DNA of 64,000 nucleotides from NCBI RefSeq assembly GCF_032854445.1, contig NC_088303.1, positions 13,957,501-14,021,500 of the forward strand. The letters are read 5' to 3'. Of the stretch, positions 29,479 to 63,582 are shown one piece after another; the first letter of the stretch is position 1, and every line of letters starts with the position of its first letter. The stretch is from Liolophura sinensis (taxonomy: Eukaryota > Mollusca > Polyplacophora > Chitonida > Chitonidae). The translations under genes were made by a program, and so were the position numbers. A model generated the notes under the pieces. It had not been told where the DNA came from. It saw only the letters and a program-made list of their open reading frames with translations, and made no database searches.

Positions 29479-29580
29479 ATGTTGAAGTTAATCTGTCTGA
29501 GCGTGGTATTTTGCCTATTGCAAGGCTGTGAGTTATTCGTTACCGGGCAAAAGTGTGATGTACCCATAGTCAAAAGCCAG
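29479..29580 (+). CDS. Gene 1 exon 1: signal peptide
   Basis: ATG at 29479 opens 34 codons, MLKLICLSVVFCLLQG then a short polar segment with K-C-D-V-P-I-V-K-S-Q, ending exactly at the donor CCAG|gtatga (phase 0). The first 16-23 residues are a standard signal peptide. A pyrimidine-rich acceptor ends at 29477, one base before the ATG, so an intron separates this exon from an untranslated leader. Gene 2 has the same intron just before its ATG. The C-x-x-P segment after the signal peptide recurs in gene 2 exon 1 (S-C-H-I-P) and at the end of gene 1 exon 5 (Q-C-H-L-P-P). It is therefore a conserved N-cap of the module. Confidence 0.82.
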
Positions 29581-32500
29581 GTATGAAATCTGTCACACCA
29601 TCCATACGGACAGGTGACGTCTCAATTCAATTTAGCCGAGAGGGCATATACGTATATATGATGGCTGATACCGTCCCTCTTTGACCACCACCCTCGTAAC
29701 TCCGTGACCCTTGGGGGTCGCTAATGGTCACCATCAGCCAGCAAACATATAAATGAGCTGTATTACATTTTACCAAACCAAAGGGGCATGTACATTTTCA
29801 TACTCGGTGTAATGTAAACGAAGATGACGTAGCCGTTTTTAAAAAAATGTTTGAAACATGTTTCATGAAAGTGTGTTTGACGGAAGTGGTGTTCATAAAA
29901 GAAACCGAGTTTGGTGTAAACGCTCGATAGAAACGTGTTAGATGAAAATGTATACGGTGTTGGACTAACATGGAACTAATACGAAATCGTTATTTATCTG
30001 CAACCAAGTACCGCCCATGAATGAAACGTTTACCACTAGGCACAGAATTTCAAATGACCACCCCTAGATGGCTCTCCCTGCCCACCAACAAACGATCGTC
30101 GATCTATTTGTAAAGAATTTTAGTTCAAATATACTGCTTTGAAACTGGGTCCGCGTTCTGTGTTAAACAAGGATAGCATGGTTTAGGTTTTGTGACTTAG
30201 TTTTACGGTCAGTCCTCATTTCAAACACGTCTTATTTAAAGAATATTGTTTTGTACATCACTGTGTTCATAAAATCAACACACATTATAATTTTAAATAA
30301 AATAAACACGAGCAGGACGAAGAGTAAAACGTCTACATTGATGTCTTTAATTGATGGTTTAATGGTATTGAAAGAAGACTGTTCTTCATCTCCAAACTTA
30401 TGACAGCCATTATGTATATATATTTATTTCGTAATGTAAGAAAGTCTCCTGGATACTGGACTATTTGACTTATAACGAGATTCTATTGCATATGGTGTGT
30501 ATATATGTTATGTACTATGCATGGCCGTGTTTTACCCACAGGCATCCCCGAATCAGCCGGCCATTAGGTTCAGCACGTCTCCAGTACGGGTCAGCAGTGG
30601 TTTTCCTGACCTAACAGTTACCTTTGAGGACAAAATTTTTACAGTGAAAGGATGTGAGTGAATTTTGCAATATAAAGATAGGGTTAATCTGAACGAATTA
30701 TAGTTTAGGAAAATAGAACACAGGCCTTTAAGTGTTCAAATATTCAATTTTGCTTTTAACTTTAGTTCAGTGTTACGGAAAGTTTAAACTGATTCTGTAA
30801 GGTACTAATTCGTAGATTTCTGGTGAGGTCACTAAGACATCATAGTGACAATTCAGTGCAACTTGAATGCGTCAAATCTTTACAGTGCAGTAGGGCTACT
30901 TGCATATAATTTAAAATTTCTGTATTTGTATTAAAGGACAAGATTTGAACAGGGTTTAAGTTTTTTCTTGATGCTTTTTCATACACATAAGATCGGCTCC
31001 CCTGTAAATCAGTTTTAATGTAAGCGAGTAATTAATTAACCCTAAAACGGAAGTGACCCATGTGGTGAATGCAGGCAGTGCAACAACAACAACATAATAC
31101 TACTGTGAGCACGCACCGTTCGGCAATAATACAGAGCTGTGCCGTAGCTATTTGCCAAAATATATATGTGTCCCTCATATCAAACATTTACTTGTACTTA
31201 CAATGCGTCACTTCTGTTTTAAGAAATTAATTAATTAATCGCTTATTATAAATCTGATTTAAGTGGGCGCTGATCTTATGTTTATAACACAGCATCTAGA
31301 AACAACTCAAACCTAGTTGAACTCATTTGTCTTGTCCTTTAAAATAGTAGTTATGTCCGAATATCATTATTTTTTTTCTATACGATACCCCAAACTACCC
31401 AGGAACATAATTCAGTCCAATCCGGTTTTAAAAGTTTTCTTTTTCGCGTATAACATCCATGTTAAAATTGGCGGAATAAACCTACCGTGCCGTAAAACCG
31501 ACGACATCACGTCTCAAGGGCGCCACCTTGTTGTCTCAACGCCGTACATGGACGTCGGAACGCACGTATTGCGTCGGAAAAAATACATCAGTTGAAGGTG
31601 TCCTGAATAGTAGGCAAGATACAATTCCTTTTCAAGAGATATATTTTGTATTCAGTTTTTGAATTCTATGTCATGACCAGCTTGCGGCTAGGTATGAGTC
31701 TTTCGCGTATTTTTGTCTAAATGAAATCACCTGAAATGAAATGTATTTACCTCATTCTATGTATTTTCACCGTCATTTTCGCATGTTTTTTTCGCACAGG
31801 TGTCCTTACGCTGTACCTAAAAACCACATTGATAAATACAGATGGCTTACCGCTTGATTTTGCTGGCGATCCCGTAACTTGCTATAAGGCAGACGATGGC
31901 TCTGATCAAAATCGAACAGTGGTCGCCATGGGTATGGTTCTGAAATTTCAGACGAATTCTGTAGACAGACCGGAAATTGTACCTCCATCTTGGTACGACG
32001 GTGAACGTGCTGTGCTAAACTTAACATACAGCACATTCCCAAAGGCTGTCGAAGAAAGGATGACTTGTGAATTTGTTGTGTTTGGACCGATTAAATTGAT
32101 GGCGGACGTGAATACCACCGCTGTAGGTAAGCTACCTGTGAACTATGTGACCCAGACAACAAAAGTTATTGTAACGTAATGTACCGTTACTCTCTTAAAA
32201 CCAATGATTCAAATTTGAGCATTCACAATTACATATTTATGCAGTGGTAATTGTGGATGGATTATACAAATTACACAAGATGTTTACTGCTTGCGCACAT
32301 AATTGTGTTCATGTGTATTTTTGCCCAAAGCGGTCGGGTGCTCGAATCAAGCTCTCATGGTTTCGGCTGCGGCTTAAACTAGGTCTGTTACTCCAAGCAC
32401 TCCGAATTCCTCCAACTATCATTCTCAACACCGTCATATAATTGAAAAATCTTGAGTAAGGTTTTAAACACCAAACAACCAACCATTCAATCAATCATAT

Positions 32501-35500
32501 TTCGGTTAGTGAGGTTTCAAACAGCACTATTCATCAAAAACTTTCACCGCTAGTTTACATATTTTGTTCCAAGAGGCTGAAATATTACATTCCCTGAGCT
32601 GATAGACGCATATTCAGATTTGTTTTCTATATTAACGCTTGTTACATGTGCATAATTTACAATATAGGTTGTCCAAACAGTCACTGGGGTACCCGATGCC
32701 AGAATGTGTGTCCATGTCAAAATGGTGGTCGATGTGTTGGTACTTTTTCCGCCAGGTGTCGCTGTCCCACTGGCACGAGCGGTGATCACTGTCACAAAGG
32801 TATACGTCTTCTCTAGGGCATGAAGAGTAAAACACATTTTATATCCAGTAAAATTCATGTGAAGTCTAAAATCTGAAGTGATAAATGTTCTCAACATTTA
32901 AGAAAAGTTAATTATTATATTCCCCCTTGTTACATTTGTTTATTTCTTCAATTTGTGTAATTTATTTCATTAAAGTAAGATGTATTTTGAAGATCTTGTC
33001 AGTAATCTTTGCAAGCCCATCCGAGAAGACGAGTAAAAATTAACGGTTCGTAAAATAATAAATTAATACTTGCCTACATAAAATAAATGATGATCGGTAC
33101 TTTGTCTATACTTATGTATAATCATATAAGGGAATGCACCACCGCACACGGCATGTGGGGCCTTACAGACAATAAGCCGATTCAACATTTCAGGAGTCTC
33201 GCAAATTAACGCAGGTTTGGACGAGATAAAATGGGTGCTTTTACAAATTAACGTGGATGAAAGGGTGATTTTACAGAAGTTTCTAGATTGAACATACATC
33301 TTGCATAGTCGGGACAGTCGGCTCAACAGCGCCGTTAGCAGTTAGCGTAAAATCGTGTCTTTCAGAAGCACCAGTTTGCAGGAGTGTCAGTCTTATCTTG
33401 TCTCGCGAGACTCATGAAATGCCGATTCAGCTTGTAAATGGTCACGCAAGCAGCCGACGACACATGTGTGACGGTTTACTCAGTTCTAAATTTGTTGATG
33501 ACATATATCTCACGTGTGAAAAATGTTGTCAAATGTGGGTCGTTGGTTTACCCCGGGTTCTCCGGTTTACTGTGTCCATTCCTCCGTCCATAAGACTGAC
33601 CCCCATCATAATGGTGAGAAAATCTTGAGTATGGCGTTCATTAACAATGAAATAAATAATTAAAATATCGTTAATAACTGACGGTCTTTAACACACTCAC
33701 GAAATACTTCTTCAAAATAGTTGTTACAAATTTTCATTCGCGGCGAGCAGCCCTGTAGACGGGTGGTATGGTTGGTGTTGTTGTTGACATTGTGTCCAGA
33801 TTGTCCTTGGCATGCATATTGCCGTGCTATGCAAATGGATCGCAGCTCATTTTTTCCCTGTTTCTGTCTTAGCGACCGCTGCACAAAATGGCACTGTGCC
33901 GTCTGTATCAAAGGATGGCCCTATTTCATCAAGTTTGACCCCACCTGTCTTATCCACCGACTCACCTACTCCAGACAACCTAAAACGGTCTGTGTCAGAA
34001 GGCAGTCTACAAGTGACACGTAACACATATGATTATCAGGGTAGCGGACTTCTTGATCAATGTCACCTACCACCTCGAACATCTATGGCAGTAAGTACAT
34101 ATATCTTGTAGGACTGTAAAGCTGGCAATACAGGCCAAACTAAAAGAGAGCGCATATCTTGGCCTGAGCAAAATGTACAAAAGTGTATGATGAATTTCAA
34201 CGAGCGGACAATACTTTGCTAGGCACTATTGCGCGGGAAAGGAAAAATATGAACATCTGTCCTATATGGCAATGTTGAAAAACTGTTTTAAAAACTCTCC
34301 ATCCGAATCAAGGCCTGGTTCACCGGTAAACTGTAATGAATTGTCTTTATCACATGGCCTGCAAAATATCTGGATAACTTTTCCTGTGTAATTGATGACG
34401 ACTAGAGAGTAAACGCCGGCAAAACATAACTTCCTTGGGAGATTTAAATCCCTGTACTGTATTATCAAGTTATAAAACTGATCTATATTTGGCTGAAATT
34501 ATAGAAATGTAGTAATTTGCCTCTATAGATACTGCTCTCGACGACAAATTCAGTGATTGAATGCTGTTGAAAAAACTTGTGCTGTGAAGGTCACAGTATA
34601 CCGTAATGACACCGGATGGAGCATTTCTTATTCTGTAACTTTAATATAAGCTTGAGGAAGCACTGTATGTATCATACCGATTTGTAAAGTCCTGGGTGTC
34701 CTCATGGAAGATTAGCTCCGCCATTATCGTAATCTAATGTGCGCAGGTAAAATTAGAAGATGACGCTGCGTTACAGTTTTCCTTTGACCCGATTTCCGTC
34801 AACAATCGAGTTCTGCATGATCTGACAGCAGAGGACCATCGCTATGAAGTCAGGCAATGTGAGTTGAAACATTTGACATGAGTGCCATTGGCAATTCCAA
34901 GTGCAACTACATAGGGAGCAGCGCCTTCATGCAGGTCAGCTTCGCTTACCGATGGACAAAGTGCTGCAATATACTGCATAGGAATGGACAGCAGACTGCA
35001 CAAGAATGGACAGTAGACCGCACAAGGATGAATAATAGACGGATAAAGAATGGACAAAAGACTGTATTAGAATCGACAATAGACAGTATTAGAAGAGACA
35101 CAATACTGTACAGGGATAGACGACAGACAGCAGAGCAATGGCCAGTATAGGTTGTACAGGAATGGGCAAAAGGCTGCATAAGAATAGACAACAAGTTGCA
35201 AGGAATGGGCCATACAGACTGTACAGAACTGTATAACTGGCAGAGCAGGAATGGGCAATAGACTGTACACAAATGGACAATGGACTCCAAAAAATGGACA
35301 GTAGGCTGTATATATAAACATTAGCATATAGAAATACATGTAGATGATAGAAAGTGCAGGATGATGGATTTGAAAGAATGATATACCATACAAGTGTGAA
35401 CAACAAACTACAAGAATAGACAATAGAATGCACAGGAATGAACAACCACGTACTGGATAGAAAGTAACAGTAAGAAAGTGAAAATAGCCTACGCAGAAAC

Positions 35501-38115
35501 GTCACAAAGATATACAGGAATGGACACTGCAAAGAAACACAGCATACAAGAATCAAGAGCAGACAACACTGTAATAAAGAATAGCATACAAGAGAGGACT
35601 ATAGACATCACTGCAATGACGATTATCATATACAAGAGTGAACAAAAGACAACACTGTAACGAAGAACTGCATATACAAATGGACAATGGACGATACTGT
35701 AACGAAGAACAAAATACAAAAATTAACACTAGATGATACTGCAGTGAAGAATAGCATATAGGAGTAGATAATAGGCAATGCTGTAACGAAGAACAGCACA
35801 TACAAATGGGCAATGAATCATACCGTGATAAAGAACAGAACTGTAACAAAAATTTGACACTAGATGATGCTGTGACAAAACTGTAATGAGGAATAGCATA
35901 CAAGCATAAACAGTAGACAAAACTGTGGCAAGGAATAGCATACAAGCATAAACAGTAAACAAACAGTAATGAGGAATAGTATACAAGCATCAACAGTAGA
36001 CAAAACTGTAATGAGGAATAGCATACAAGCAACGACAGTAGACAAAACTGTGGCGAGGAATAGCATACAAGCATAAACAGTAGACAAACTGTAATGAGGA
36101 ATAGCATACAAGCATCAACAGTCGACAAACTGTAATGAGGAATAGCATACAAGCATCAACAATAGACAAACTGTAATGAGGAATAGGATACAAGTATCAA
36201 CAGTCGACAAACTGTAATGAGGAATAGCATACAAGCATAAACAGTAGACAAAACTGTGGCGAGGAATAGCATACAAGCATAAACAGTAGACAAACTGTAA
36301 TGAGGAATAGCATACAAGCATCAACAGTCGACAAACTGTAATGAGTAATAGCATACAAGCATAAACAGTAGACAAAACTGTGGCGAGGAATACCATACAA
36401 GCATAAACAGTAGACAAACTTTAATGAAGAATAGCATACACGAATCAACAGTCGACAAACTGTAATGAGGAATAGCATACAAGCAACGACAGTAGACAAA
36501 ACTGTAATGAAGAATAGCATACACGAATCAACAGTCGACAAACTGTAATGAGGAATAGCATACAAGAAGGGATAACCCACTACACGGCAATGCACAACAA
36601 ACTGCGCAGGGATGTACTATAGAGTATACAGAAACGGAAAATAGACAGAATACGATTGGACCATAGAATACAGGAAGTCTATTAAGAGTGTAGAAAATGA
36701 ACAAAGGCACTATTAAAAGTACAAGAAAAGAAGAAAGCATTACTCAGAGTACAGGAAATAGCTAAAGAATATGATTTCATAGAATTTAACAATGAATAGC
36801 AGGGATTGACATTCGAATACTTCGCACTGTTTCAGCAATAGAATTTTAGTCGTATGCCAATCTTGTAAGTAAAGAACGATTATTTATATTACATATACAT
36901 ATTAATCAGGACTACATAAAGGATTTTTGGACTTTCAACTAGTACTAGCAAACTGTATGCTTGGGAGCAGGGATGGATATTTTGATATCTTGATGATATA
37001 CAGTTGTTTAGACTTGGATCAAACCTAAATTTCATCCAAATGAGGGCACAGATAAGACCGAATAGGCATGAAAACTGAAATGTATGAAATTTTTTTATTT
37101 TATATCCAACAGGCCAGCTGACGGTGTGGATAAGAAGCTCGCCTATAACCGTAACGCCTTTCCTCAGGACGTTGTCACCGTCGGGAAAAGGGGTGTTGTG
37201 TCATTCCAGTGACCCTTTCCAAACTATAGCGGAGGCCAGTGTGGTTTACTACTTGGGGGACAAGGCCATTCCTCGACCAATTCCTGTACCGACAGATTGG
37301 TACGACGGGACATCGGCTGTCGTTGAGATCAGTTTTCCGTCGTTCTCGCCTTATTCTAACACCTCATTGAAGATGTCCTGTCCCTTCAGTCACAACATTG
37401 GCAATTTCACCATTAAGTGGGGTGTAGACATCCAGGCCTTAGGTACGACACAAAGTTTATTAAAATTTAATATAACCAAATGAATCCCAGCCTTGGACAG
37501 GAAGTTTTCGAGATTCCCATGCCTGTACAGTGCAATCAGAGCCTTGGTGACAGTAAAGAGTTTAGGTCATTTCACATGAAGATGGAGATCACTTGGTTTT
37601 CATCAATATGACATGTGCATTAAGCTCGCTCAGCAGGCGAAAATAATAGTTAGTTACTTGTCAAAACACGGTGGTTGGCATCCAACACTTTGAATACACT
37701 GCCGTGTACGTGAAATATTCTTGAATAACTTGTTCAACAGCAATGAATCAATCAACAGGACCAAATAAATGAACCGCTAGATAAGAAACGGCCACCTATC
37801 ACCATGTCTGGATTTTAATTAGTTATGTTTGTCATTTTAATTAAAAGAAATAGTCAGCTTCAAATAAATCAAAATCTTAAAATCTTTAACAATTATTTTC
37901 AAGGTTGTCCAGTAAGAAAATGGGGAGCGTATTGCCAGAATGATTGTCAATGTGGAGGCAACAGCTACTGTCATACTTTTAGTGGCTGCTTTCTCGGTGA
38001 CCCGCGGGAAGTGATCTCCAGTCGCCCGGAGTCTGCGTCAAGTGCCACTTCTCGTCCGCTCATCAGCCGTCTGTTTCACGCATCTATGTTTTCGTTGCTA
38101 TTATTGTTGGTGTAA
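29479..38115 (+). CDS. Gene 1: two-module Ig-EGF surface protein with GPI-like tail (8 coding exons, 514 aa)
   Basis: Joined exons: 29479-29580, 30542-30653, 31800-32126, 32668-32799, 33873-34090, 34747-34858, 37113-37442, 37904-38115. All junctions are GT-AG and in frame (1545 nt, 514 aa plus stop). Order in the protein: signal peptide (about 1-23), Ig-like module 1 (35-180), 8-Cys EGF (181-224), Ser/Thr/Pro linker (225-297), Ig-like module 2 (298-444), shortened 6-Cys EGF (445-478), Ser-rich stretch and a C-terminal hydrophobic tail ending LLLLLV. Likely role: a cell-surface, GPI-anchored adhesion, recognition or decoy-receptor-type protein; this is inference. The EGF style G-C-P-x(3)-W-G-x(2)-C-x(3)-C is like that of Tie and MEGF proteins. 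No kinase or ordinary transmembrane segment is seen. It converges on gene 2 to its right. Modules 1 and 2 are clear internal duplicates. Alternative: a fragment of a longer Tie-like receptor annotation; the in-frame stop at 38115 argues against that. Confidence 0.8.
30542..30653 (+). CDS. Gene 1 exon 2: module exon A (start of Ig-like domain 1)
   Basis: 112 nt, acceptor cccacag|, donor GGAT|gtgagt, phase 0 in and phase 1 out. It encodes I-R-F-S-T-S-P-V-R-V and, later, D-L-T-V-T-F-E-D-K-I-F-T-V-K-G. The final T starts a Cys codon (T|GT) completed by exon 3. Exon 6 (34747-34858) and gene 2 exon 2 (47028-47139) have the same length and phases and align without gaps. This makes the exon convincing although it is short. 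Confidence 0.78.
31800..32126 (+). CDS. Gene 1 exon 3: module exon B (Ig-like domain 1)
   Basis: 327 nt, acceptor ttcgcacag|, donor CTGTAG|gtaagc, phase 1 at both ends. It begins (C)-V-L-T-L-Y-L-K-T. It carries V-T-C about 30 residues in, then P-P-S-W-Y-D-G, then M-T-C-E-F. The two Cys are placed like the B- and F-strand disulfide of an Ig-like fold. Possible N-glycosylation sites are N-R-T, N-L-T and N-T-T. The open frame runs upstream of 31800 to an ATG at 31721, but that part is the polypyrimidine tract and upstream intron, so the splice start is preferred. Confidence 0.85.
32320..32490 (+). mobile_element. Old SINE fragment in intron 3 of gene 1
   Basis: ccaactatcattctcaacac, cgtcatataattgaaaaatc, ttgagtaag, caccaaacaacc; heavily diverged. 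Confidence 0.45.
32668..32799 (+). CDS. Gene 1 exon 4: 8-Cys EGF-like domain
   Basis: 132 nt, acceptor aatatag|, donor CACAAAG|gtatac, phase 1 at both ends. It encodes G-C-P-N-S-H-W-G-T-R-C-Q-N-V-C-P-C, then Q-N-G-G-R-C and a C-x-C-P-T-G-T-S-G-D-H-C end. Eight cysteines in the laminin/Tie-type EGF pattern, with the W-G signature of MEGF and Tie EGFs. Gene 2 has an equal-length exon at 45571-45702. Confidence 0.87.
33540..33662 (+). mobile_element. Old SINE fragment in intron 4 of gene 1
   Basis: gggttctccggtttactgtg, cccccatcataatggtgaga and cttgagtatggcgttc; diverged. Confidence 0.5.
33873..34090 (+). CDS. Gene 1 exon 5: Ser/Thr/Pro linker plus duplicated N-cap
   Basis: 218 nt, acceptor tttctgtcttag|, donor ATGGCA|gtaagt, phase 1 in, phase 0 out. 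It encodes a low-complexity extracellular linker (T-P-P-V-L-S-T-D-S-P-T-P-D and similar), then L-D-Q-C-H-L-P-P-R-T-S-M-A. The last segment matches the C-x-x-P tail of signal-peptide exon 1. The second module therefore appears to have been copied together with the mature N-terminal cap. The phase change from 1 to 0 is what is needed to feed the phase-0 A exon. Confidence 0.72.
34747..34858 (+). CDS. Gene 1 exon 6: module exon A (start of Ig-like domain 2)
   Basis: 112 nt, acceptor gtgcgcag|, donor GGCAAT|gtgagt, phase 0 to phase 1. It encodes L-Q-F-S-F-D-P-I-S-V and, later, D-L-T-A-E-D-H-R-Y-E-V-R-Q, then the split Cys codon. It aligns with exon 2 without gaps (F-S-x-x-P, D-L-T, E-D, x-V). The following intron is 2.25 kb and is mostly minisatellite. 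Confidence 0.78.
34960..36760. repeat. Minisatellite filling intron 6 of gene 1
   Basis: The core from about 35880 to 36560 is an array of 41-42-bp units (aatagcatacaagcatcaac, then agtcgacaaactgtaatgagg) in more than a dozen copies. Older, more diverged units of the type 'aatggacaatagactg' extend to about 34970 on the left and 36750 on the right. The long open frames on the - strand here (up to 199 codons) arise from this stop-poor repeat; I do not call them genes. Confidence 0.88.
37113..37442 (+). CDS. Gene 1 exon 7: module exon B (Ig-like domain 2)
   Basis: 330 nt, acceptor atccaacag|, donor GCCTTAG|gtacga, phase 1 at both ends. It begins (C)-Q-L-T-V-W-I-R-S-S-P-I, with V-L-C-H-S-S-D, then P-T-D-W-Y-D-G-T-S-A-V-V, L-K-M-S-C and N-F-T-I-K-W. 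This is a clear paralogue of exon 3, sharing the Cys pair, the W-Y-D-G motif and both end phases. Confidence 0.87.
37904..38115 (+). CDS. Gene 1 exon 8: shortened EGF, Ser-rich stretch, GPI-like tail, stop
   Basis: Acceptor ttttcaag| at 37903, phase 1 in. It encodes G-C-P-V-R-K-W-G-A-Y-C-Q-N-D-C-Q-C, then C-H-T-F-S-G-C, which is six Cys; the last two of the 8-Cys form are missing. Next comes a Ser/Ala-rich segment (E-S-A-S-S-A-T-S) and a tail H-A-S-M-F-S-L-L-L-L-L-V followed by TAA. Small residues, a spacer and a terminal hydrophobic run with nothing after it fit a GPI-attachment signal. I saw no convincing AATAAA within the first few hundred bases after the stop. Confidence 0.83.
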
Positions 38116-41645: not shown

Positions 41646-41752
41646 TCTCCTGACTTAAAGGAGAAGAAAATTTAAATATCAATCAAATACCATTGAAAAG
41701 AGTATGCATTTCCTCCCAGGTGCATGCCATAAAGAAAATCCTAATATGTACC

Positions 41753-42222
41753 TCAAGTTGATAAATTATAAATAAAGTCAGCGCCAAAATCCGCTGTGGA
41801 CAACTCCATTTTGCCTAAGAACCAGTCCTGAAGTCTCCTGTATTAGGAGGAGAACTGTCATCGGAAACCGCCGAAGTGCAGTTCGTACATTTCCGGTAGA
41901 ACTCTTCTTCCCAGAAGTAGCGAACGGTACAGTTCGTTTTCCCCTTGACGATCGGGAAACCTGAATGCTAGACGTAGGTTCCGAATTTACACGAATCGGC
42001 AGTTTTAACGACTCTCATTGGCTGAGAGGCAACACACCCCCAGCATAAATTACAGGGTGTTAAAGATGGAGGATCCGGTGGACTATTTATGCCAGCTTTC
42101 AGACTTTACGTGTATGGCGAGGAAAATGGCAAAATTATGCATCAGTCACCACCAGATAGAAAAAAAAAACATGCTCTTTTCAGCCTATAGTGTCAAGTTT
42201 TTAAGTTTTCTTCTTTAATGAA
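41753..42222 (+). repeat. Copy 1 of a two-copy ~475-bp repeat
   Basis: Colinear with 52348-52830 over its whole length (tcaagttgataaattataaa start, gcctatagtgtcaagttttt end), with scattered substitutions and small indels. It contains a reverse CCAAT box (tctcattggctgagaggc) followed 40 bases later by a short ATG frame. No protein match recognised. Confidence 0.7.
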
Positions 42223-44318: not shown

Positions 44319-44656
44319 TTATGCGAAGAAGAATCTATAAACAACGCAGCTGAGATAAAACAGGGTTAACGTTCGTACTATTTTTGCGCTGTACATACGT
44401 GAGTGACCTGACGTAGGCTTTGTCATCTGATTGGCTGAGGCTGTAGGTTGTGTTGAGGTCGTCTGCTGTGTTGATATTGTTTGTTGGGTTGATGGCGTCT
44501 GGGTTGTGGGTGTCGTCTGTTGTGTTGATGTCGAAGTGTCCCGCGTAAAGTTCATCTGCTGATTTCCGCTTGTAGTCTTATCCTTTAAAGTCATGTTAAC
44601 TGATCGTGTAGTGCCAGTGGCCGTTGTTAAAGGTTGCGTAGTACTCGTTGTCATGC
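44319..44656 (-). CDS. Gene 2 exon 5: mucin-like Thr/Ser/Gln stalk and C-terminal tail
   Basis: Acceptor gttcctttaag|, phase 1 in. The frame is open to a stop at 44319. It encodes many T-T-S/T-Q-Q repeats (for example S-T-Q-Q-T-T-P-T-T-Q-T-P), then G-H-S-R-M-Y-S-A-K and a terminal hydrophobic stretch L-T-L-F-Y-L-S-C-V-V-Y-R-F-F-F-A. The tail may act as a GPI signal, but the Arg inside it is unusual. A gtatgt sequence inside the exon at Ser-Arg could serve as a donor, which would remove the tail. Confidence 0.68.
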
Positions 44657-47600
44657 CTTAAAGGAACAAAATATCATCGTCAGTGCGTTTACAGAGGATA
44701 GATAGAGGAGATTCCCAGATATCAGCCAAACACAATTCGTTTCCTTTAATAGAGCTATATTATAAATCATACACATCATACATTCGGTTTCATTTATATG
44801 TACAGTCTACAAATATTTATTTATTTCCTTTTTGTATTCTAGGGACAGTTGCATTTGTATGGTAACGTTATTGTTGATTTTCTTCATAATGCAGTTTTCA
44901 TTTAAGGATAAGAAAACATAACAATGATGCCAATCAAATGACAGCGCGTATAAACTTATTTCCAAATATGGCCTCTTAATATTTCTTTCGATTTTCTCCG
45001 AGGGAAAAAGGGTATTTGAAAATATTTTTGCGTGGTGGGTATTTGTGGCCACCTTTTAGTATTTATCGTCGTTGCATAATGATGTTCTAAATAAGGCTGT
45101 GATTGCATGCCTAACAGATTTATCTGAATGTGCATTTGTCGTTTATATTCAAACATATGCATTTAATCTGAATTACGATAATATTTATGAATATATTATG
45201 AATATATTAAAAACAAAGATATGATCAAAATCCAGGTTGAACATGTGTTTAGCTGAAAAGATCAAATTCTAGAGCAAATATATTTATTAAACATGTGCTA
45301 CATCCTCCACCGTTAAAACAAATTTTATGAGAACTCAAACAGCCATTAAACAAACCCACAAAGGTTTTATTCCCGCCTTGCCAATTGACATTATATAAAT
45401 ATATTGCAAATATTTGGTGAATTAAAAAACAATTTAAAAAAATTAATTTGCTACTATTACGCATTTACATGAACAGCTGCCAAGTATCACACTGTCGTCG
45501 CTGATCTGGTTTTGATCTCCGTGCTGTAGTTTATTTGTGTTTCATTACATTCTATAATACAATAACTCACGCGTTTCACACCGCGTTCCAGTGAATCCAT
45601 CCAGGCACCAACATTGGCCCTTAAACGTGTCGCACTCGCCACCATTTTCACAGCTGAAGCAATATGTTCCGCAGTCTGAACCCCAGTGGGTTTTCGGGCA
45701 GCCTGTACAACAACATCACAACTCATGCAGTTGATTTCAAAGCTAAAATACACCCAGGAACTGCATTTAGTATTTAGAACTGATACACTCACAGTAATTA
45801 TATGTACATCAGAGACTAATACATGGATAGGCTATTCGCCTACTTAAACTGAAATAAAGCAGAATTCTTTTTTAACATTTGCTTGCGTCATTTCCGTATA
45901 TCTATTGTTATTTAATGTCATAGTCAAGATTTTTTCATTTATAAGTTTTATGGGTGGAATTTTTTTGAAGAATTTTCCAAGATATGACCTAAGTTTTTTT
46001 TGTCTTGTGAAAGCCCAAGGGCTTTCGGCGAGGACGCGATTGTTCTAGTGTGTATGGCCAGACACAAGACTTTTCAATGCTTGTCTTGTACACAAGGCAT
46101 TTCAATGCTTGTTTTGTACACAAGGCATTTCAATGCTTATCTTGTACACAAGGCATTTCAATGCTTGTCATGTACACAAGGCATTTCAATGCTTGCCTTG
46201 TACACATGGCATTTCAATACAATTTCAGAAGAATTTAACAGAAACTTACCGACTTTCTGAACAGAAAAATTTGCTGTGACAACCACATTTATCACAGAGG
46301 AGAATACAGTGACGTTTCGCTCTAATTTACACCGGTAGGTGGTGCTTTGCTGGGCGGGAAATCCACGATAAAAGAAGAGCTGCATGATAATGTTAGCGCT
46401 GTTATACCAGAATGTGGGTATGACTTCAGGTTTAGTGGCTGGATTATCGATCATCTTAAGCACCACTCCGTACACACTCTTCACTAGGGGGTCTGTGTCC
46501 TTGGAGCAAAAGAAAAGCGTGCCCTTAATGCCGGCATTGGCGAGAAAAGGACTGGGGTTTTCGATGGTTTGGCTTACCAAATACACCGTAAGTCCACCTG
46601 AAACAATACCCACAAAAAGCTTGTTATTTTTCTGATTATTTTGGAAACATGTAGTGTTATGAATATAATAAAATAAAATAATAAAGACTTACAGCACTGA
46701 GATCTTCGCTTCGAAACATTCGCACTCCAACCCACTCAGAATGGATATTCGAGGTCTATAATCGCAAGGCCAATTCCCAAAACAACGTTTAACACGAGTC
46801 ACCAAAGAATTAAGTCAGTACAAAAGTACGATATTAGGACGGAATCAAGCGAAGAGATGCAGTCAACAGTTTTCAATGTTCTCGGCGAATAAGTGAAAGC
46901 AGTATTCAAATCGTGTATTCTACGTCAGGATCTGTGCTTACGTCACATGACCTGCGTGTCAAATCGAGTATTCTACGTCAGGATATGTGCTTACGTCACA
47001 TGACATGCGTGTGACATGTGTACTTACAATCTGTCACCGCATACACGTGATCCCGAACCATTACATTGGGCAGAAAGTAGTTCACGTTATTCTCGATTGC
47101 GGAGAAATTGAATCGAACGGCATCTCTGTTAACTGCAGCCTGAAATGTGGAGACGGTATTCAAACAACCAGACAAACTTATTTCAGTTACAAACAGGGGG
47201 GCCTCCTTGGCCGAGGGGGTTAGCGCCTAAGCTCGGCGCAATGACCCAGTAGACTCTCGCCAATGCGGTCGTTGTGAGTTCAAGTCCAGCTCATGCTTTC
47301 TTCCTCTCCGACAATACGTGGGAAGGTCTGAGCAACTTGCGAATGGTCGTGGATTTCCCACGTACTCTGCCCAGTTTCCTCCAACCATCATGTCATATAA
47401 GTAAAATATTCTTGAGTATGGCGTAAAACACCAATCAATCAAATAAATAAATAAATAATTACAGATGTAAAAGACAGCATAGAGACCAAAACCAGACCAG
47501 CGACGGAAGCATGATAAACAGTTGGCAAATGGCCACATGCAACCGGTGAAATCCGGCCTCCTGTCAGTTTATCGCAGGGTTTTATTCTATAGTTTTTCAT

Positions 47601-48404
47601 ATAAAATCTTAAATAGTAGCAACTTAAACGCCCTCTAGCACAACTGCTTTTGCGAGTTACAGGCAAGCAGAAGTAGTGTACCTCACGGAAATAAAATAAC
47701 TAAATGAGTTTGATCTTCCATAGAATTTTACATTATCCATGTTCCGGTGTAAATTCTGTTCGTCACTCCAGTAATGTCTTTCAAGTTTCAGTATTATCAC
47801 ATTATGTTCATTTCTTTGTAACATCACGGCCCATAAATACATTCACCATCCTTAACAACTCCTTTATTTGACCTTTTGATGTACATGATTTGCGTTCATG
47901 AACCACTGAAAATATCAGTGTTGCTAACCAATGGACTCAGAAGAAACAAGATCTTCGGAATCCACTATTTCTTAAAAACTGAAGATTTCCTTTGTTGCTA
48001 TTAACATCATTAAATTTTTAAAACTAATTCTGTTTAAATCGTGGTGCGAGGGGGCATGTAAGTTGATTGTATCAACGCATTTACACGAAAGGTTTATCAC
48101 TGACATATTTAGACTGACAAGAGGCCGGATTGTACCGTTGACGTGTGAAAACTTGCCAACTATACGCACAGCTCTGGTTTAGTATTTTGTATCCGTGATC
48201 TTAATGAAATGAAAGTGTGTGCTATTCAGCGTGTAAGCCTTGTATGATCGTGGTACAAGATGAAAAGATACACTAAGAGGTACTCACCAGGGAAGATTTT
48301 CCTGCAGGGATGTGACAGGAAGGGCTCCGAATCTGCCCAACCGAAGTGACAATCTGACTGGTAAGGATCAGCAACATCAGCTGAGCCGCCGTCGCGACAA
48401 GCAT
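44319..48404 (-). CDS. Gene 2: single-module Ig-EGF protein with mucin-like stalk (5 coding exons, 348 aa)
   Basis: Joined in transcript order: 48404-48288, 47139-47028, 46597-46250, 45702-45571, 44656-44319. All junctions are GT-AG and in frame (1047 nt). The protein has a signal peptide (about 1-22), C-x-x-P cap, one Ig-like domain (40-192), one 8-Cys EGF (193-236), and a Thr/Ser/Gln-rich stalk likely to be O-glycosylated (237-325). It ends in a short hydrophobic segment with one Arg near the end. It looks like a one-module relative of gene 1, on the opposite strand, tail-to-tail with it. Likely at or outside the cell surface; the partner is unknown. A second reading uses an internal donor in the last exon (see findings), which would continue to an unseen exon. 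Confidence 0.78.
45571..45702 (-). CDS. Gene 2 exon 4: 8-Cys EGF-like domain
   Basis: 132 nt, acceptor gttgtacag|, donor GAAACGC|gtgagt, phase 1 at both ends. It encodes G-C-P-K-T-H-W-G-S-D-C-G-T-Y-C, then C-E-N-G-G-E-C and C-W-C-L-D-G-F-T-G-T-R-C. All eight Cys are present. Length equals gene 1 exon 4. Confidence 0.87.
46060..46220. repeat. 28-bp tandem repeat in intron 3 of gene 2
   Basis: About six units of aaggcatttcaatgcttgtc plus ttgtacac. The array begins about 30 bases from the donor of the Ig-like exon. Confidence 0.88.
46250..46597 (-). CDS. Gene 2 exon 3: module exon B (Ig-like domain)
   Basis: 348 nt, acceptor attgtttcag|, donor AAAGTCG|gtaagt, phase 1 at both ends. It begins (C)-G-L-T-V-Y-L-V-S-Q, with L-F-F-C-S-K-D-T-D, then I-P-T-F-W-Y-N-S-A and T-Y-R-C-K-L-E. 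Possible N-glycosylation sites are N-V-T and N-F-S. It is a direct paralogue of gene 1 exons 3 and 7. A 28-bp tandem repeat starts within about 30 bases downstream of its donor. Confidence 0.86.
46735..46925 (+). repeat. Dispersed repeat related to 40868-41075
   Basis: See the 40.9-kb entry for landmarks. It lies in intron 2 of gene 2, next to the CRE-like duplication. Confidence 0.55.
46911..47016. repeat. 53-bp direct duplication with CRE-like sites, intron 2 of gene 2
   Basis: Two adjacent copies of attctacgtcaggatctgtg followed by cttacgtcacatgacctgcg. Each carries TTACGTCA, which resembles a cAMP-response element, and CACATG. The second copy ends about 12 bases from the donor of exon 2. 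Confidence 0.7.
47028..47139 (-). CDS. Gene 2 exon 2: module exon A
   Basis: 112 nt, acceptor cacatttcag|, donor GATT|gtaagt, phase 0 to phase 1. It encodes V-R-F-N-F-S-A-I-E-N-N-V and, later, R-D-H-V-Y-A-V-T-D, with the split Cys codon at the end. Length and phases are identical to gene 1 exons 2 and 6. Confidence 0.78.
47196..47458 (+). mobile_element. Full-length tRNA-derived SINE in gene 2
   Basis: Head gggcctccttggccgagggg, box B gtgagttcaagtcc, body, tail gtaaaatattcttgagtatg and AAATAAATAAAT. It lies in intron 1 of gene 2, with an unrelated dispersed repeat abutting its tail. Confidence 0.88.
47460..47665 (+). repeat. Dispersed repeat family R copy
   Basis: Has gttggcaaatggccacatgc, aaccggtgaaatccggcctc and agtagcaacttaaacgccct, directly after the SINE tail. 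Confidence 0.65.
48288..48404 (-). CDS. Gene 2 exon 1: signal peptide
   Basis: 39 codons: M-L-V-A-T-A-A-Q-L-M-L-L-I-L-T-S-Q-I-V-T-S-V-G, then R-S-P-S-C-H-I-P-A-G-K-S-S-L, ending at donor CCCTG|gtgagt in phase 0. The acceptor ctactgcacag lies two bases before the ATG, mirroring gene 1. The C-H-I-P piece corresponds to the N-cap of gene 1. Confidence 0.8.
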
Positions 48405-52137: not shown

Positions 52138-52347
52138 TGTGCTATTATAATGATTTCAGAGAAATTTCAGAAACACACAGCTCATAGACATTGTACATCG
52201 TAACAATATTTGCAGGTAGTTAAATACTAAAACTGTCGGTCTCGTTCTAATATATTAATAATGAACTGACTTTCTGTCTGCTACAATTTACCACCTTCAA
52301 AAATCCATCGTCATATTCGCTTCGCTGCAGTAGGGTACTTGGTTACC

Positions 52348-52830
52348 TCAAGTTGATAAATTATAAATAAAGTCAGCGCCAAAATCCGCTGTGGGCGACT
52401 CCATTTTGCCTAAGAACTAGTCCTGAAGTCTTCTGTGTTAGGAGGAGAATTGCCGCCGAAAACCGCCGAAGTACAGTTCGTACATTTCCGGTAGAACTCT
52501 TCTTCCCAGAAGGTAGCGAACAGTGCAGTTCGTTTTCCGCTTGACGATCGGGAAATCTAAATGTTGGACGAATGTTTTCCGAGGTTACACGAACAAGCCA
52601 CTTTACACGACTCTCATTGGCTGAGAGGCAACACACCCCAGCATAAATTACAGGGTGTTAAAGATGGAGGACGCAGTGGACTCAGCGATTTATGCCAGCT
52701 TTGCCGTTTTCAGGCTTTACGTGTAAGGCGAGGAATAATGACAAAATTATGCAGCAGGCACCAGCAGATAGCAAAAATGTGCTCTTTTCAGCCTATAGTG
52801 TCATGTTTTTAGGTTGTCTTCTTTAAAGAT
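52348..52830 (+). repeat. Copy 2 of a two-copy ~475-bp repeat
   Basis: Colinear with 41753-42222. The short ATG frames in the two copies diverge and end differently, so no conserved protein is supported. Confidence 0.7.
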
Positions 52831-55707: not shown

Positions 55708-55800
55708 GAAATATTTATTTATTTATTTGATTTGTGTTTTACGCCGTACTCAAGAACATTTCATTTGTACGACCGCAGGTTGCTGCAAGACCTTCCCACG
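55708..55800 (-). mobile_element. SINE tail fragment with internal deletion
   Basis: The tail (tttacgccgtactcaagaac) joins directly to the cgcaggttgctgcaagacc part of the body. Confidence 0.75.
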
Positions 55801-58465: not shown

Positions 58466-58621
58466 TGTGTGCAAAATTTTCGATGCGGTCAGTTTCCTTT
58501 AATAATTTCCTTTAAAACACTGAGTTGTTACACATACAAATTGTTTTGTAAATGTTGTGAGAGTTCGTGAAAAGCCATTCACTCCGTAAAAATGGGCTCC
58601 AACAAGGGAGCCGTTCCCATG

Positions 58622-58698
58622 TGGATAGCTCATTCAGTGGACAGGTGCATGGGGCGCTAGACACCCCAAGTCGTGAGTTCGAGTCTCCCTAGAGCCAT
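58622..58698 (+). repeat. tRNA-like sequence (SINE head or tRNA pseudogene)
   Basis: Contains a box-A-like ggatagctcattcagtgg and a box-B-like gtgagttcgagtctccc, closing with agagcca. A related, shorter copy lies at 58880-58930 in a tandemly repeated context, so this is not a unique tRNA gene. Confidence 0.5.
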
Positions 58699-58844
58699 TA
58701 TACTTCACGGGACTTCATCAGTGTAGGAAATTAAAACCATGCATTCTTTGATGATCATTGCGATTTGCTTTCGAACAAAGAGTCGTCTCTTAGTACATTG
58801 TACTGTAAATGTTATTTGCTTTTTGTGAAATATTATTCACTTCC

Positions 58845-58850
58845 TTTATT
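58845..58850 (-). promoter_or_regulatory. Candidate polyA signal of gene 3
   Basis: AATAAA on the - strand about 500 bases after the stop. If used, the 3' UTR would contain the 59.03-59.35 kb minisatellite. No direct support. Confidence 0.25.
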
Positions 58851-58879
58851 TGAACTCCGTTAAGAGAGCCGTTCCAATT

Positions 58880-58930
58880 TGGCTGATAGCTCAGCTGGTA
58901 GTCATGAGTTTGAGTCTCACTGGAGCCAAT
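58880..58930 (+). repeat. Degenerate second tRNA-like copy
   Basis: ttggctgatagctcagctgg, then tcatgagtttgagtctcact and ggagccaa. The acceptor-like ends pair (ttggct/agccaa), but the anticodon arm is missing. Confidence 0.5.
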
Positions 58931-59025
58931 ATCTCACTTCGCTGGTCAGGACTCATCATTGTAGGAAATTATATCTATTCCATTTTTTTCCTGATGATGA
59001 TTGTAATTTACTAGAAAAAAACGTC

Positions 59026-59400
59026 AATGAAGTTGAGACCGAGCCATGGGCACGCATTTTACTGGTCCAAAAACATCAAGGAAAAACCAAGAGTGAATTT
59101 GACACCGAACCATGTAGATGTCTTTCACTTGTCCAAGAACACGAAGGGAAGCCATCAGTGAAGTTACCACCATGCATGCCGCGGGGATGTATTTCACTTG
59201 GACAAAGATCACAGGAAAAACTATCAGTGAAGTTGACATCGTGCATGCCATGGGGATGTATTTCCTTACACATGAGAATCATAAGTGAAGTTGATGGCGT
59301 ATTTCACTAGTTCAAGAATAGCGAAAATACCGTCAATCACGCAGACGGATTTCACAAGGCCGAGAAAACTAGGACCACCATCAGTGAACTCGTGAACCAC
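59026..59400. repeat. 64-68-bp minisatellite overlapping the 3' end of gene 3
   Basis: About six diverged units containing atttcacttgtccaagaaca, then ccatcagtgaagttgacacc. The rightmost unit (59349-59400) is part of the coding sequence of gene 3. Confidence 0.75.
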
Positions 59401-59563
59401 CAGCTCTGGTGACTTGCCGTTGAATTGCCAGGTTCTGTGATTGTTGAATTAGTTGATGGGTCGGACTCAGTAGTGATCTCTACAGGTGATGTCGTATTTG
59501 GCGTAGTGGTTAAAGGGGGCAGGGTCGCGTCATTTCGTGGTATATAGGTTGATGATGGGGTAA
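59352..59563 (-). CDS. Gene 3 last exon: Thr/Ser/Pro stalk and GPI-like hydrophobic tail
   Basis: Acceptor ctatatttcag|, phase 1 in, stop TGA at 59354-59352. It encodes a stalk rich in T, S and P (P-L-T-T-T-P-N-T-T-S-P, N-S-T sites), then S-H-Q-S-W-W-F-T-S-S and a terminal hydrophobic run L-M-V-V-L-V-F-S-A-L. It fits a GPI-attachment signal. The last 50 or so coding bases are homologous to the downstream minisatellite units (see findings). Confidence 0.74.
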
Positions 59564-60402
59564 CTGAAATATAGAAAGTACTGGTTTCAACAATGAGTAT
59601 GTATGTGTGTATATATGCTTGGGATTTTACCTTGTGTCTTTGTTTTCAGTCATATGACGACGAGGAGTCCTTATTTGTTTGAACTTACACCGTGTCCTCT
59701 TGTGACAGGGTGAGTCCATGCCGCCAAGGTGCTGCCACCACTGAAGTATCATGCCCAGGACACCAGACACGTCATTACACCCAGTCATGGTATACTGGCT
59801 CCGGGCCAACCAGTCCTGTTTCGTTGCTGAAACCTCTCAGTGCTGAGCGCCAAGCAAAGCATCAATAAGTACTATTTTCAAAATCTTTGGTATGATCAGA
59901 CCCGGGTGTGATCCCATGTCTCTAATCATTAGGTCAGTGAAGCGGATCGACAGTGAGTATACCTGTACGTTTTGTCCTTAGAGTGTTTGCCAACCCTTCA
60001 GCGGGTCAGGAAACATCCAGAGTAAGTTTTGAAAGAACAGCGTTATGATTTTCAAAAGGGTCTTAACACAGCATTTTATTGGTTATATGATGCTGCATTT
60101 GTTTTGATTTATTTGATTGGTGTTTTACGCCATACTCAAGAATATTTCACTTATACGACGGCGGCCAGCATTATGGTGGGTGGAAACCGGGCAGGTTGCT
60201 GACAAACCGCATTTGTTTTGATGTTACGTGTACATGACATGTCATGTATATATACAAACCTTTATTACAAGTTTATGACATCTTGAATTGTTTAGCACTC
60301 ACCGCTTAAACAAAACAGTATTCGGCGTAAGACTCAATAAAATAATTATTGATCTACATGTATTTGATTGTTTTTTAACGCCGTGTCCAAAATGTTTTTC
60401 TC

Positions 60403-60492
<90 letters not shown>

Positions 60493-63400
60493 TTGAAAAA
60501 TAGAGAAAGATATCCTGGTGAGGAAAATTTACATAGGAAAAAAAATAATAAAACGCCTTCTCAACTTTCTACATTCTGTTATATTCCAACTGCACTTTCA
60601 AACTTCGTGTTATTTTCAAGGAATATGAATATGAATGTCCACAGAGGTCTTTATACAGGATATGTGTTATCAGTATTTCAGGAACATGTTAAGTACATGT
60701 CAAAACAGGCAGTGGTTTAGTTACATGGCATAATACACGGATAAATTGTTGCTGGGAGAAAGGTTGTATATGTATAAAGCTGTTGAGTAGCGAACAATAG
60801 ATTAAACAGTACCTGACAGTGTTTTTTCCGCAGGGCAACTAGAGACGATGCATCTCTATTAGCATGGAACTGATGACCCTGCGGATAATCTGTGACATAA
60901 CATTTGTACATATACAACGAGTAATGTATACAATGAGTAATAAAAATGAACTTGTTTGACAAAATTAATCAACATAAATTATACAAGCACGTGGTTCATC
61001 ATCATATTATGAGATAGGATATTAGGGCCGATGACTACCATTGAGACGTGGGTTGTATTTACTTATGAAGAAAGTTTCTTTTACATCTAAGGTGGTTTGA
61101 TCCATTCGATGCTAATAAAGATGCATCGTCACTAGTCGCCCAGCGGATACACACTGTCAGGTAAAAGCAATGGTAAACTCACCAGGCTCAGGCAAACACG
61201 CCCCTGTAAATGTGTGACAATTTTCACATGATGGGCATTTTATGGAACAGTTTGCTCCCCAGTAGCTCAGAGGACAACCTGTAACAAAAGGTGAACAATA
61301 AAAGACTGACTTTTACAAATGTCAATCATAACTGATGTTTGAATTCAAGGCCAAGCTAAAGAGGTGCGCCATCTGTCATCTGTCCATCCATCGCTCTACC
61401 GGTATCCCATAATACCACATGGTGATACCGTAACAGTATAGTTGTGAATGCATTTAAAGAATTCGCCGAAATGCACCCAATAACTTGAACAAAAAATATA
61501 GATAGATAAATAAATGAATAAATGAATTCATTAATTAGATCAATTAATTCATTAATTAGATCAATAGCATAGTTGGTATTTTCATTAGGAAGTCCATGTT
61601 ATAGATTTTTAACACTCAGTTCAGTATGTCATTGGTGGTTAACATCTAGTTCAAGAATTTTTCACGTACATATCGGCGGTAATAATTATGGGTGGAGGAA
61701 GCAAGTCTTCGCCAGGCGAAACCACGAGAGCTAGATTCCAATCTGCCATGCTCCTCATTTGTCAAGGATCTGTCGGATACGGCTAAAAGCAATCTTCGAC
61801 TTCAGGAGCCAAATAGTTTACTGGACACAGCACAGTTGCGGAATGGATTAACTCTTGTCGAGCAATTCCAGAGTTACAGAGAGAAACCACCCAGATGTGT
61901 CGGGTTGAGGGTAAGGAACATTTACCGCGGTACACGCAAGCATGAAATCTTCGCTGGCGAAAATCGATGTCAACCATATGATCTGAAAACTATCTAACCT
62001 GTTCTTGGGTTGGTTTAACCAAAAACAGTCCATGGCAGTAACACAAATAAGCCAATAAAGCCTTTTTAGCGTCTACCCGTACTGCGGCTGCCATCACGAT
62101 AACTCACCAACTGCTATGGTATAGGCTAAAACAATGTGTTTATTTTTCATGTAGATACGTCATTGCTATGGATTCTATTGGTTTGCCGAGTCTCACAACA
62201 GGTTAGTTCATAACAGAGACCACACGTTTGACGTTGATTTATGCTAGGGAAGATTTAATGCACGTATGAACAGCATTGTTGGCCTACGCTTCATGCAGTA
62301 TGTGATAGCCCATAAATTTTACTCCCGATATTCAATCACTTGTCAAAGAAATCACCATTGCAGTTTGGATTCGAAGTAAAGCATGCCTGTAGGCCTCAAT
62401 GAATGCCGAGTAATACACACAACATTGTTTTTTTTTTATATTTAATCCAACTAGTTTCTGATTTCTTCTTTCAGAGGCATTTAGGAATTGGGATGGTATA
62501 GATTGACAGAGGCATTACTTATGGATAACAATTCCTGGATTTATTGTGTTGGTGACGTTTCGATGTAGGTTCTTACATCGTTATCAAACCATATGAACAT
62601 ACAGAGATACAAGACAACATATATACAGTAAGAGAGTGAGTGGTGTCAAAAACAGGCAACAATGTAACATAGATAGTAACTTCAGGGTTAATAATGGCTT
62701 CAGGGTTTAAGGCGGTCACTGTTTAATCTGATGAGGCCATTGTAGGCGCTCGGTAGTTGGTACCCGCTGTCTCGGTTAAGCTGAGGATTGTGTCGTCGGA
62801 TCATGATGGCTTCCAGCAGTTTCCTTCTTTTTATAGTCTGACTGATTTTTTTGTAGGGTATGAACTGTGTTCCATTGGAGTTGGTTTCTGGATGGGCTCT
62901 GATGTGGTCACTGAGGGCTGATTTTCCATCTAATTTTTCTACTGAGGCCTTGTGCTCTGCAATTCTGATATTGAGTGGTCTACAGGTTTCTCCAATGTAT
63001 TGCTGTTGACAATCACAATTAATGCAGTACACCACTCACTCTCTTACTGTATATATGTTGTCTTGTATCTCTGTATGTTCATATGGTTTGATAACGATGT
63101 CAGAACCTACATCGAAACGTCACCAACACAATAAATCCAGGAATTGTTATCCATAAGTAATGCCTCTGTCAATCTAGTTTCTGATTACAGCCGAGGTCAA
63201 GGTATTAGCATCCAGCAAAAGAGTGAAGAGCGTTTTCAGACGAGTCTTAATTTATACCTACCAATTTTTGCCAGCGTAAAATTCAGTATGTTGATCCTGG
63301 TTGCAGCGGGATCCCAGTGGCACTCGTACGTAGTACTGTCTGCTTTAGGATACGTCAAAAAGGGCAAACTAAGTATTATAGCGGTATAGTTATTCCAAGT

Positions 63401-63582
63401 TTGTGGAGAGCTCCATCCCACATCACAACTTCCAAACTTTGAGATTTCCCCCATAACAGACGGACGGTGACTGGATTGCCCGCTCTCGTAGCAAGCAATG
63501 CCTGACCCGGTCAATGAGCTGCATAAGGAAATACTGGTGTTTACAAATTCCGTCACAACAAACATCTCCAGGCTTAGCATTG
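59352..63582 (-). CDS. Gene 3 (5'-partial): Ig-EGF protein with GPI-like tail, three 3' exons in window
   Basis: Joined in transcript order: 63582-63262, 61278-61183, 59563-59352. The junctions are GT-AG and in frame, giving 208 visible residues before the stop. Order: Ig-like exon B, shortened 6-Cys EGF, Thr/Ser/Pro stalk, hydrophobic C-terminus. No A exon or signal-peptide exon is visible between 63583 and 64000, so they probably lie beyond the window; more modules may be upstream. Same family as genes 1 and 2, same strand as gene 2. A 5'-truncated Penelope-like element sits in the intron between the first two visible exons. Confidence 0.75.
59595..59960 (+). repeat. Second dispersed repeat family, near-complete copy
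   Basis: Starts tatgcttgggattttacctt, with gtcatatgacgacgaggagt, actgaagtatcatgcccagg, accagacacgtcattacacc, gccaaccagtcctgtttcgt and gtgctgagcgccaagcaaag. Partial 5' copies at 42888-42975 and 49370-49420 share the 'cttgg..tttaacgtcgta' start. Similar sequences are common in mollusc-type genomes (my recollection, unverified). Confidence 0.6.
60102..60210 (-). mobile_element. SINE tail fragment
   Basis: gattggtgttttacgccata, then cggcggccagcattatggtg and aaccgggcaggttgctgac; truncated after that. Confidence 0.8.
60403..60490. repeat. (TA)n microsatellite
   Basis: About 44 TA units, directly after a short SINE tail remnant (tgattgttttttaacgccgt). Confidence 0.95.
61183..61278 (-). CDS. Gene 3 shortened 6-Cys EGF exon
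   Basis: 96 nt, acceptor tgttacag|, donor GAGCCTG|gtgagt, phase 1 at both ends. It encodes G-C-P-L-S-Y-W-G-A-N-C-S-I-K-C, then C-E-N-C-H-T-F-T-G-A-C. It lacks the last two Cys of the 8-Cys form. This is the same shortening seen in gene 1 exon 8 (C-H-T-F-S-G-C), where the EGF also immediately precedes the C-terminal stalk. Confidence 0.82.
62502..62646. repeat. Left inverted arm of the Penelope-like element
   Basis: Reverse complement of 63029-63173, with only a few differences. It contains the hairpin cgatgta/tacatcg at 62561-62580. Confidence 0.8.
62700..63035 (-). pseudogene. GIY-YIG endonuclease domain fragment of a Penelope-like element
   Basis: About 111 codons. The visible motif V-Y-C-I-N-C-D-C-Q-Q-Q-Y-I-G-E-T has the paired Tyr and Y-I-G of the family. 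It is followed by R-I-A-E-H-K, then S-D-H and a C-terminal E-A-I-M-I-R-R-H-N-P-Q-L-N-R-D, the usual GIY-YIG Arg, His and Glu/Asn positions. The frame is closed upstream by TGA at the arm junction. This is therefore the C-terminal end of a longer polyprotein and not an independent gene. Confidence 0.75.
63029..63173. repeat. Right inverted arm of the Penelope-like element
   Basis: Reverse complement of 62502-62646. It ends flush with the right 13-bp target duplication. Confidence 0.8.
63262..63582 (-). CDS. Gene 3 module exon B (Ig-like domain)
   Basis: 321 nt, acceptor ttttaaacag|, donor AAAATTG|gtaggt, phase 1 at both ends. It begins M-L-S-L-E-M-F-V-V-T-E. It has G-I-A-C-Y-E-S-G, P-Q-T-W-N-N-Y-T-A-I-I and T-Y-E-C-H-W-D. 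The Trp and Cys positions match the other B exons, and N-Y-T and N-F-T are possible glycosylation sites. There are extra Cys (S-L-C, G-S-C) absent from the other copies. This is the most diverged member. Confidence 0.8.

Follow-up and report, generated by a model that had tools for sequence, protein, structure and literature searches.

A putative small family of kinase-less modular surface proteins in the chiton Liolophura sinensis

A question raised by a gene cluster of the chiton Liolophura sinensis is whether genes whose predicted proteins place an extracellular domain ahead of an EGF unit, in the order known from Tie receptors, are relatives of those receptors or form a family of their own. 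The cluster lies in a 64,000-nucleotide stretch of contig NC_088303.1 (C9:13957501-14021500; the whole stretch is referred to here as the window) in a genome of 609 Mb and 632 contigs. An earlier note, made from the letters of the window, had described three kinase-less genes that share one exon-coded module of Ig and EGF units and recall Tie ectodomains. Judged from sequence, and with moderate confidence, we consider the cluster to represent a small family of kinase-less, modular chiton surface proteins that combine a domain encoded by two exons (A+B) with a Tie/SCARF-type EGF unit and a Ser/Thr-rich stalk.

A shared exon-coded module

Exons were joined at GT-AG sites, and their bounds and phases were re-derived from the DNA; the exon lengths and phases reported in the earlier note were all exact. 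The frames of all three genes are open from ATG to stop (3/3), and every junction is GT-AG. Gene 1 (+ strand, 29479-38115, 514 aa) consists of a leader, A1, B1, EGF1, a stalk, A2, B2 and EGF2 with a tail. Gene 2 (- strand, 48404-44319, 348 aa) has a leader, A, B, EGF and a stalk with a tail, and gene 3 (- strand, 286 aa) has the same series, starting 1,816 bases past the window end and stopping at 59352. The three genes noticed in the window could thus be modelled end to end, although gene 3 is incomplete there, with its leader and A exon in the next 2 kb. The length of exactly 112 nt ascribed to the A exons holds for A1, A2 and the A exon of gene 2 (3/4 when gene 3 is included); it is not a fixed A length, because the A exon of gene 3 measures 124 nt. 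An AG directly precedes the start codon in genes 1 and 2, and a 5' untranslated exon may therefore precede the leader exon in both. Open reading at the length of the B exons is rare: in 284 kb, comprising the window with 100 kb before it and 120 kb after it, there are 250 phase-matched pairs of splice sites at 321-348 nt, and only 2 of them are open (counting GTRAG donors only, with the donors of B2 and of the gene 3 B exon left out). Open reading is not unusual at the shorter lengths of the A exons (8 of 22 pairs) and of the EGF exons (4 of 14).

The relationship between the copies was assessed with leave-one-out profiles, each built from the other copies and run on 9,567 open reading frames (ORFs) of the 284 kb. 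Every held-out B exon was recovered (4/4), with E between 4e-12 and 1e-6 against 0.2 to 4 for the best background, as was every held-out EGF exon (4/4), with E between 4e-8 and 7e-5 against 0.03 to 0.6. Three of the four held-out A exons scored above the best background, with a strong E value for one only: the A exon of gene 2 gave 3.9e-5 against 1.9, that of gene 3 0.053 against 2.2, and A2 0.049 against 0.1, and A1 was not above background (0.81 against 0.065). When exons were compared in pairs, none of 500 shuffles reached the score for any of the EGF pairs (6/6), for five of the B pairs or for four A pairs (A1 with A2, A1 and A2 with the A exon of gene 2, and the latter with that of gene 3). 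The B exons of gene 3 and B2 are weakly related directly (14/500 shuffles) and are connected through B1 and the B exon of gene 2. The proposal of one shared exon-coded module is therefore strongly borne out for B and EGF (8/8 leave-one-out) and more weakly for A.

In the alignments made, the B exons are 14-28% identical to one another. Five residues are invariant in 5/5 copies (G24, C29, P58, W61 and C86); the B cysteine pair is 57-62 residues apart, and in the four copies with positions 32-37 residues separate the first cysteine of the B exon from the invariant W that follows it. The A+B segments of the 4 complete modules have four cysteines in common: one in a C-x-x-P motif, which closes the leader exon or the gene 1 stalk, one at the A-B junction and two in B; in one alignment, the first B cysteine of gene 2 is out of register.

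We also searched the whole genome for further copies, with match counts that are lower bounds. The B1 exon gave 5 matches to E 10 in the 609 Mb, which are B1 itself and the four other B exons of the family, and B5, the fifth B exon, gave 4, all from the family, with the B exon of gene 3 the only copy missed. With B2+EGF2 there were 17 matches to E 10, of which 6 are family exons and 11 are weak (E 0.3 and above); B+EGF of gene 2 gave 68, mostly over the EGF part, on C1, C2, C7, C9, C10, C15 and others. The B2+EGF2 search revealed a fourth gene on the same chromosome as the cluster, 8.4 Mb away, with a visible part of ~4 kb (C9:5624026-5628004); the 1.5 kb of upstream DNA examined yielded no A exon. 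The B+EGF units share 26-37% identity with that of gene 4, which points either to ancient duplications or to rapid evolution of the copies. Profile searches found no other family copies within 100 kb before or 120 kb after the window. An isolated stretch of 28 residues that matched B2 (E 0.036; window coordinate 139,182) was rejected, as it has no open exon around it. In a literature search that covered titles and abstract openings, with most subscription journals outside its coverage, no description of such a family was met among the entries listed.

Predicted protein architecture

As far as their sequences tell, the encoded proteins are kinase-less and modular and are probably located at the cell surface. 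All three gene models stop after the tail, with no kinase or cytoplasmic part. In a genome search with PF07714 (140 of 671 candidates scored, 152 matches), the matches listed for C9 fall at 3.55, 26.26, 27.7 and 31.7 Mb, compared with 13.99-14.02 Mb for the cluster and 5.63 Mb for gene 4; of those listed, the nearest is separated from gene 4 by ~2 Mb and from the cluster by ~10 Mb. The kinase motifs HRDL, DFG[LM][AS]R and [VI]RWM[AS]PE are absent from the six-frame ORFs of the 284 kb around the cluster. The description of the genes as lacking a kinase therefore stands for the three genes, for their neighbourhood among the PF07714 matches listed and for the motifs. A hydrophobic leader peptide is present in 3/3 genes, and Ser, Thr and Pro make up 50-63% of a 40-residue stretch in 3/3 proteins. 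Each module has one EGF, and no fibronectin match was found in the three proteins with Pfam.

In the organization that we propose, each gene would encode a leader, one module (two in gene 1), a Ser/Thr-rich stretch and, at the C terminus, a short end without a cytoplasmic tail, the module being a cysteine-bearing A+B domain of ~145 residues followed by the EGF unit. The C-terminal end would most likely be swapped for a glycosylphosphatidylinositol (GPI) anchor and the stalk would be O-glycosylated; A+B, perhaps an Ig-like sandwich, would then be a binding head kept off the membrane by the EGF unit as a spacer and by the glycosylated stalk. Because there is no kinase or other inside part, such proteins would be expected to act through binding, whether in trans (in adhesion or recognition), as decoys or by way of a partner receptor, and not through signalling of their own. 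The copies may have arisen by duplication of a phase-compatible block, the run from A to stalk going from phase 0 to phase 0, in an order of events that is conjectural. Gene 1 holds A-B-EGF twice, and the C-x-x-P motif of the leader exon recurs before A2; the phase 0-0 run and the C-x-x-P at the stalk end suggest that gene 1 is a fusion of two one-module genes.

Several observations weigh against this organization. Two A pairs are weak, the A exon of gene 3 being matched by shuffles in 9/500 cases with A1 and in 75/500 with A2. A GTGACC at 37997, inside the last exon of gene 1, may serve as a donor; gene 1 could therefore end differently, because this donor would give a 93-nt EGF2 exon (compare the 96 nt of gene 3) and place the tail elsewhere. 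The threshold for C-terminal hydrophobicity is passed in gene 3 only, by a 15-mer; the short SLLLLLV of gene 1, seen by eye, is below it, and the end of gene 2 is weakly hydrophobic and interrupted by arginines, which makes its anchoring doubtful. Each gene had been said to end in a stalk and a hydrophobic tail: the stalk is present in 3/3, whereas the tail is found by score in gene 3 and by eye in gene 1 and is weaker in gene 2. Among the Pfam matches listed, none, EGF included, reaches the curated cut-off.

Relationships of the EGF unit and of the A+B domain

Both its cysteine pattern and its profile matches assign the EGF unit to the Tie/SCARF type. In a PDB profile search, the EGF part matched 6u11 (an EGF-containing chain; E 6e-7), Tie2 EGF1 (2gy5; E 1e-6) and SCARF1 (E 6e-4), and its profile alignment with Tie2 EGF1 had a probability of 97.9%, with 0/100 shuffles reaching the score. 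EGF families were the only ones above chance level in Pfam, and gene 2 gave a weak teneurin EGF match below the cut-off. The last cysteines are missing from EGF2 and from the EGF of gene 3. The Tie likeness seen earlier in this unit is thus real but is not specific to Tie, because 6u11 matches slightly better and SCARF1 matches too. The EGF style is also that of SCARF, MEGF and teneurin-type proteins; these carry long EGF arrays, whereas each chiton module has a single EGF and an A+B domain in addition. The genes resemble Tie1 and Tie2 in having an extracellular domain followed by an EGF with W-G after its first cysteine. Tie receptors have three EGF units, placed between Ig domains, as well as fibronectin III repeats, in contrast to one EGF per module here, and the chiton genes are without a kinase or transmembrane-cytoplasmic part and without a match to Ig_Tie2_1.

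The Tie label for the family derives from the EGF unit and, on sequence comparison, is not supported for A+B. A genome search with PF10430 (Ig_Tie2_1) gave nothing over the cut-off and nothing at the B exons, with one chance-level match (E 8.8) on C14; the model also gave a match in 0/14 control genomes and had no mollusc positive control for a divergent molluscan Tie. A profile of the B exons aligned to human Tie2 Ig1 better than 100 shuffles (0/100), yet with a probability of 2.5% over 34 columns (Ig2 control, 43/100). With five copies in the profile, the probability was 0.8%, in another register, with 3/100 local and 1/100 global shuffles reaching the score (Ig2 control, 42/100 and 14/100). 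Pairwise, only the B exon of gene 3 was raised against Tie2 Ig1 (8/500 shuffles; the other three, 172-464/500), and a B+EGF search of the PDB matched Tie2 chains with its best stretch within the EGF. The comparison with Tie Ig domains that the earlier note had proposed therefore did not uphold homology of B to them.

An Ig label for A+B is plausible more generally. The size of the B exon, its phase 1-1 and its cysteine spacing match the usual pattern of Ig-type exons, and an Ig fold is conceivable for that reason; the invariant W is placed unlike the usual Ig position. To set against an Ig-like head, no Ig family matched to E 10 in Pfam (4/4 and 5/5 modules), and the B-profile search of the PDB (7 matches) included no Ig. 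One of those matches, to the calcium channel Cav1.2 (E 0.03), was rejected as chance, being to an unrelated channel protein and covering less than half of the domain, as was a match of gene 1 to nifD in NCBIfam (E 0.048). AlphaFold2 run on B2 alone with 4 sequences gave a predicted local distance difference test score (pLDDT) of 38.6, too low to be informative about the fold. In snail FREP proteins, custom profiles found more Ig domains than conventional search (PMC7588048, in its available part), so that the Pfam miss leaves room for an Ig fold. If A+B is Ig-like, it would be one more Ig domain that profiles miss; if not, it would be a new domain, with five B exons as a test set. Either way, the cluster is a compact, well-bounded case of a domain unrecognized by standard libraries, in chitons, for which few genomes exist.

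The genes could be truncated or decoy relatives of a Tie-type receptor kinase, that is, a chiton Tie ectodomain copied without its kinase and competing for ligand. The domain-then-EGF order, the match to Tie2 EGF1 and the initial, weak alignment between the B profile and Tie2 Ig1 are consistent with this, and the available part of an oyster kinome paper names a Tie kinase in a mollusc (PMC4883820). That alignment, however, became weaker and changed register with five copies, and Ig_Tie2_1, a model without a mollusc positive control, gave only its one chance-level match. In addition, the B1 and B5 searches to E 10 gave nothing beyond four family loci and B2+EGF2 nothing else better than E 0.3, and no kinase-bearing parent was therefore seen. 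We regard descent from Tie as quite improbable; a Tie-looking domain order need not signify a Tie gene. Somewhat less remote, but still unlikely, are molluscan immune recognition molecules akin to the FREP/CREP-type Ig-lectin proteins or to snail polymorphic transmembrane clusters (PTC), diversified for pathogen binding. Mollusc FREP, CREP, GREP and FReM proteins join Ig or EGF to other domains, and FREPs occur in genomic hot spots (PMC10075465, as far as the accessible text goes); PTC, comparable here by description only, consists of clustered surface-protein genes in a snail (PMC7494358, likewise in part). The clustering of the chiton copies, the low identity of their B exons and the precedent of Ig domains recovered by custom profiles all fit such a role. 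Against it, none of the proteins (3/3) has a Pfam match to fibrinogen, C-type lectin or galectin, A+B is no more than a candidate Ig domain, and the family found is small, with 5 B exons in the B1 search.

More credible, though still rather doubtful, is that A+B is not an Ig domain but an undescribed extracellular domain serving in adhesion, biomineral matrix or gamete recognition. This would account for the lack of any Pfam family beyond chance for A+B to E 10 and of a credible PDB match, and for the position of the invariant W, but it sits less well with the Ig-type size, phase and cysteine spacing of the B exon. Our own, tentative suggestion is that A+B is an extracellular domain not described before, confined to molluscs or chitons and without a described sequence relative, that became fixed to one EGF as a mobile, phase-compatible block and gave rise to a small surface-recognition family.

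Exon coordinates and neighbouring sequence

Table 1. Exons of the three clustered genes and of gene 4; positions are those of the window unless C9 is given.
Feature	Position	Strand	Length (nt)	Phase	Remarks
Gene 1 leader exon	29479..29580	+	102	0-0	Start codon, hydrophobic leader, CDVP cysteine motif
Gene 1 A1 exon	30542..30653	+	112	0-1	
Gene 1 B1 exon	31800..32126	+	327	1-1	
Gene 1 EGF1 exon	32668..32799	+	132	1-1	
Gene 1 stalk exon	33873..34090	+	218	1-0	Ser/Thr/Pro-rich; CHLP motif at end, resembles leader exons
Gene 1 A2 exon	34747..34858	+	112	0-1	
Gene 1 B2 exon	37113..37442	+	330	1-1	
Gene 1 EGF2 and tail exon	37904..38115	+	212		Truncated EGF2, tail, stop; terminal exon
Gene 2 leader exon	48288..48404	-	117	0-0	
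Gene 2 A exon	47028..47139	-	112	0-1	
Gene 2 B exon	46250..46597	-	348	1-1	
Gene 2 EGF exon	45571..45702	-	132	1-1	
Gene 2 stalk exon	44319..44656	-	338		Ser/Thr-rich stalk, weakly hydrophobic end, stop
Gene 3 leader exon	+1709..+1816 beyond window end	-			
Gene 3 A exon	+20..+143 beyond window end	-	124		
Gene 3 B exon	63262..63582	-	321	1-1	
Gene 3 EGF exon	61183..61278	-	96	1-1	Short EGF
Gene 3 stalk exon	59352..59563	-	212		Ser/Thr-rich stalk, hydrophobic tail, stop
Gene 4 B exon	C9:5,626,183-5,626,509	-	327	1-1	129-nt EGF exon follows

Repeats accompany genes 1 and 2. The sequence ahead of gene 1, extending into the opening bases of the leader exon, is present as a tandem copy (27072-27370 and 29184-29510; 89.6% identical over 328 aligned columns with gaps, 92-100% in ungapped blocks), and reading in the upstream copy (27072-27370) enters a TA microsatellite. 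The intron between A2 and B2 contains a minisatellite with units of ~41-42 bp (35526-36592). Gene 2 is flanked by a repeat pair at ~41750-42220 and ~52345-52830 that is 86.4% identical over 491 columns. Within an intron of gene 3, a 111-aa open frame on the - strand (62703-63035) has no Pfam match; it resembles the GIY-YIG end of a retroelement. An open frame of 994 codons with a leader-like start lies on the + strand ~65 kb past the window end.

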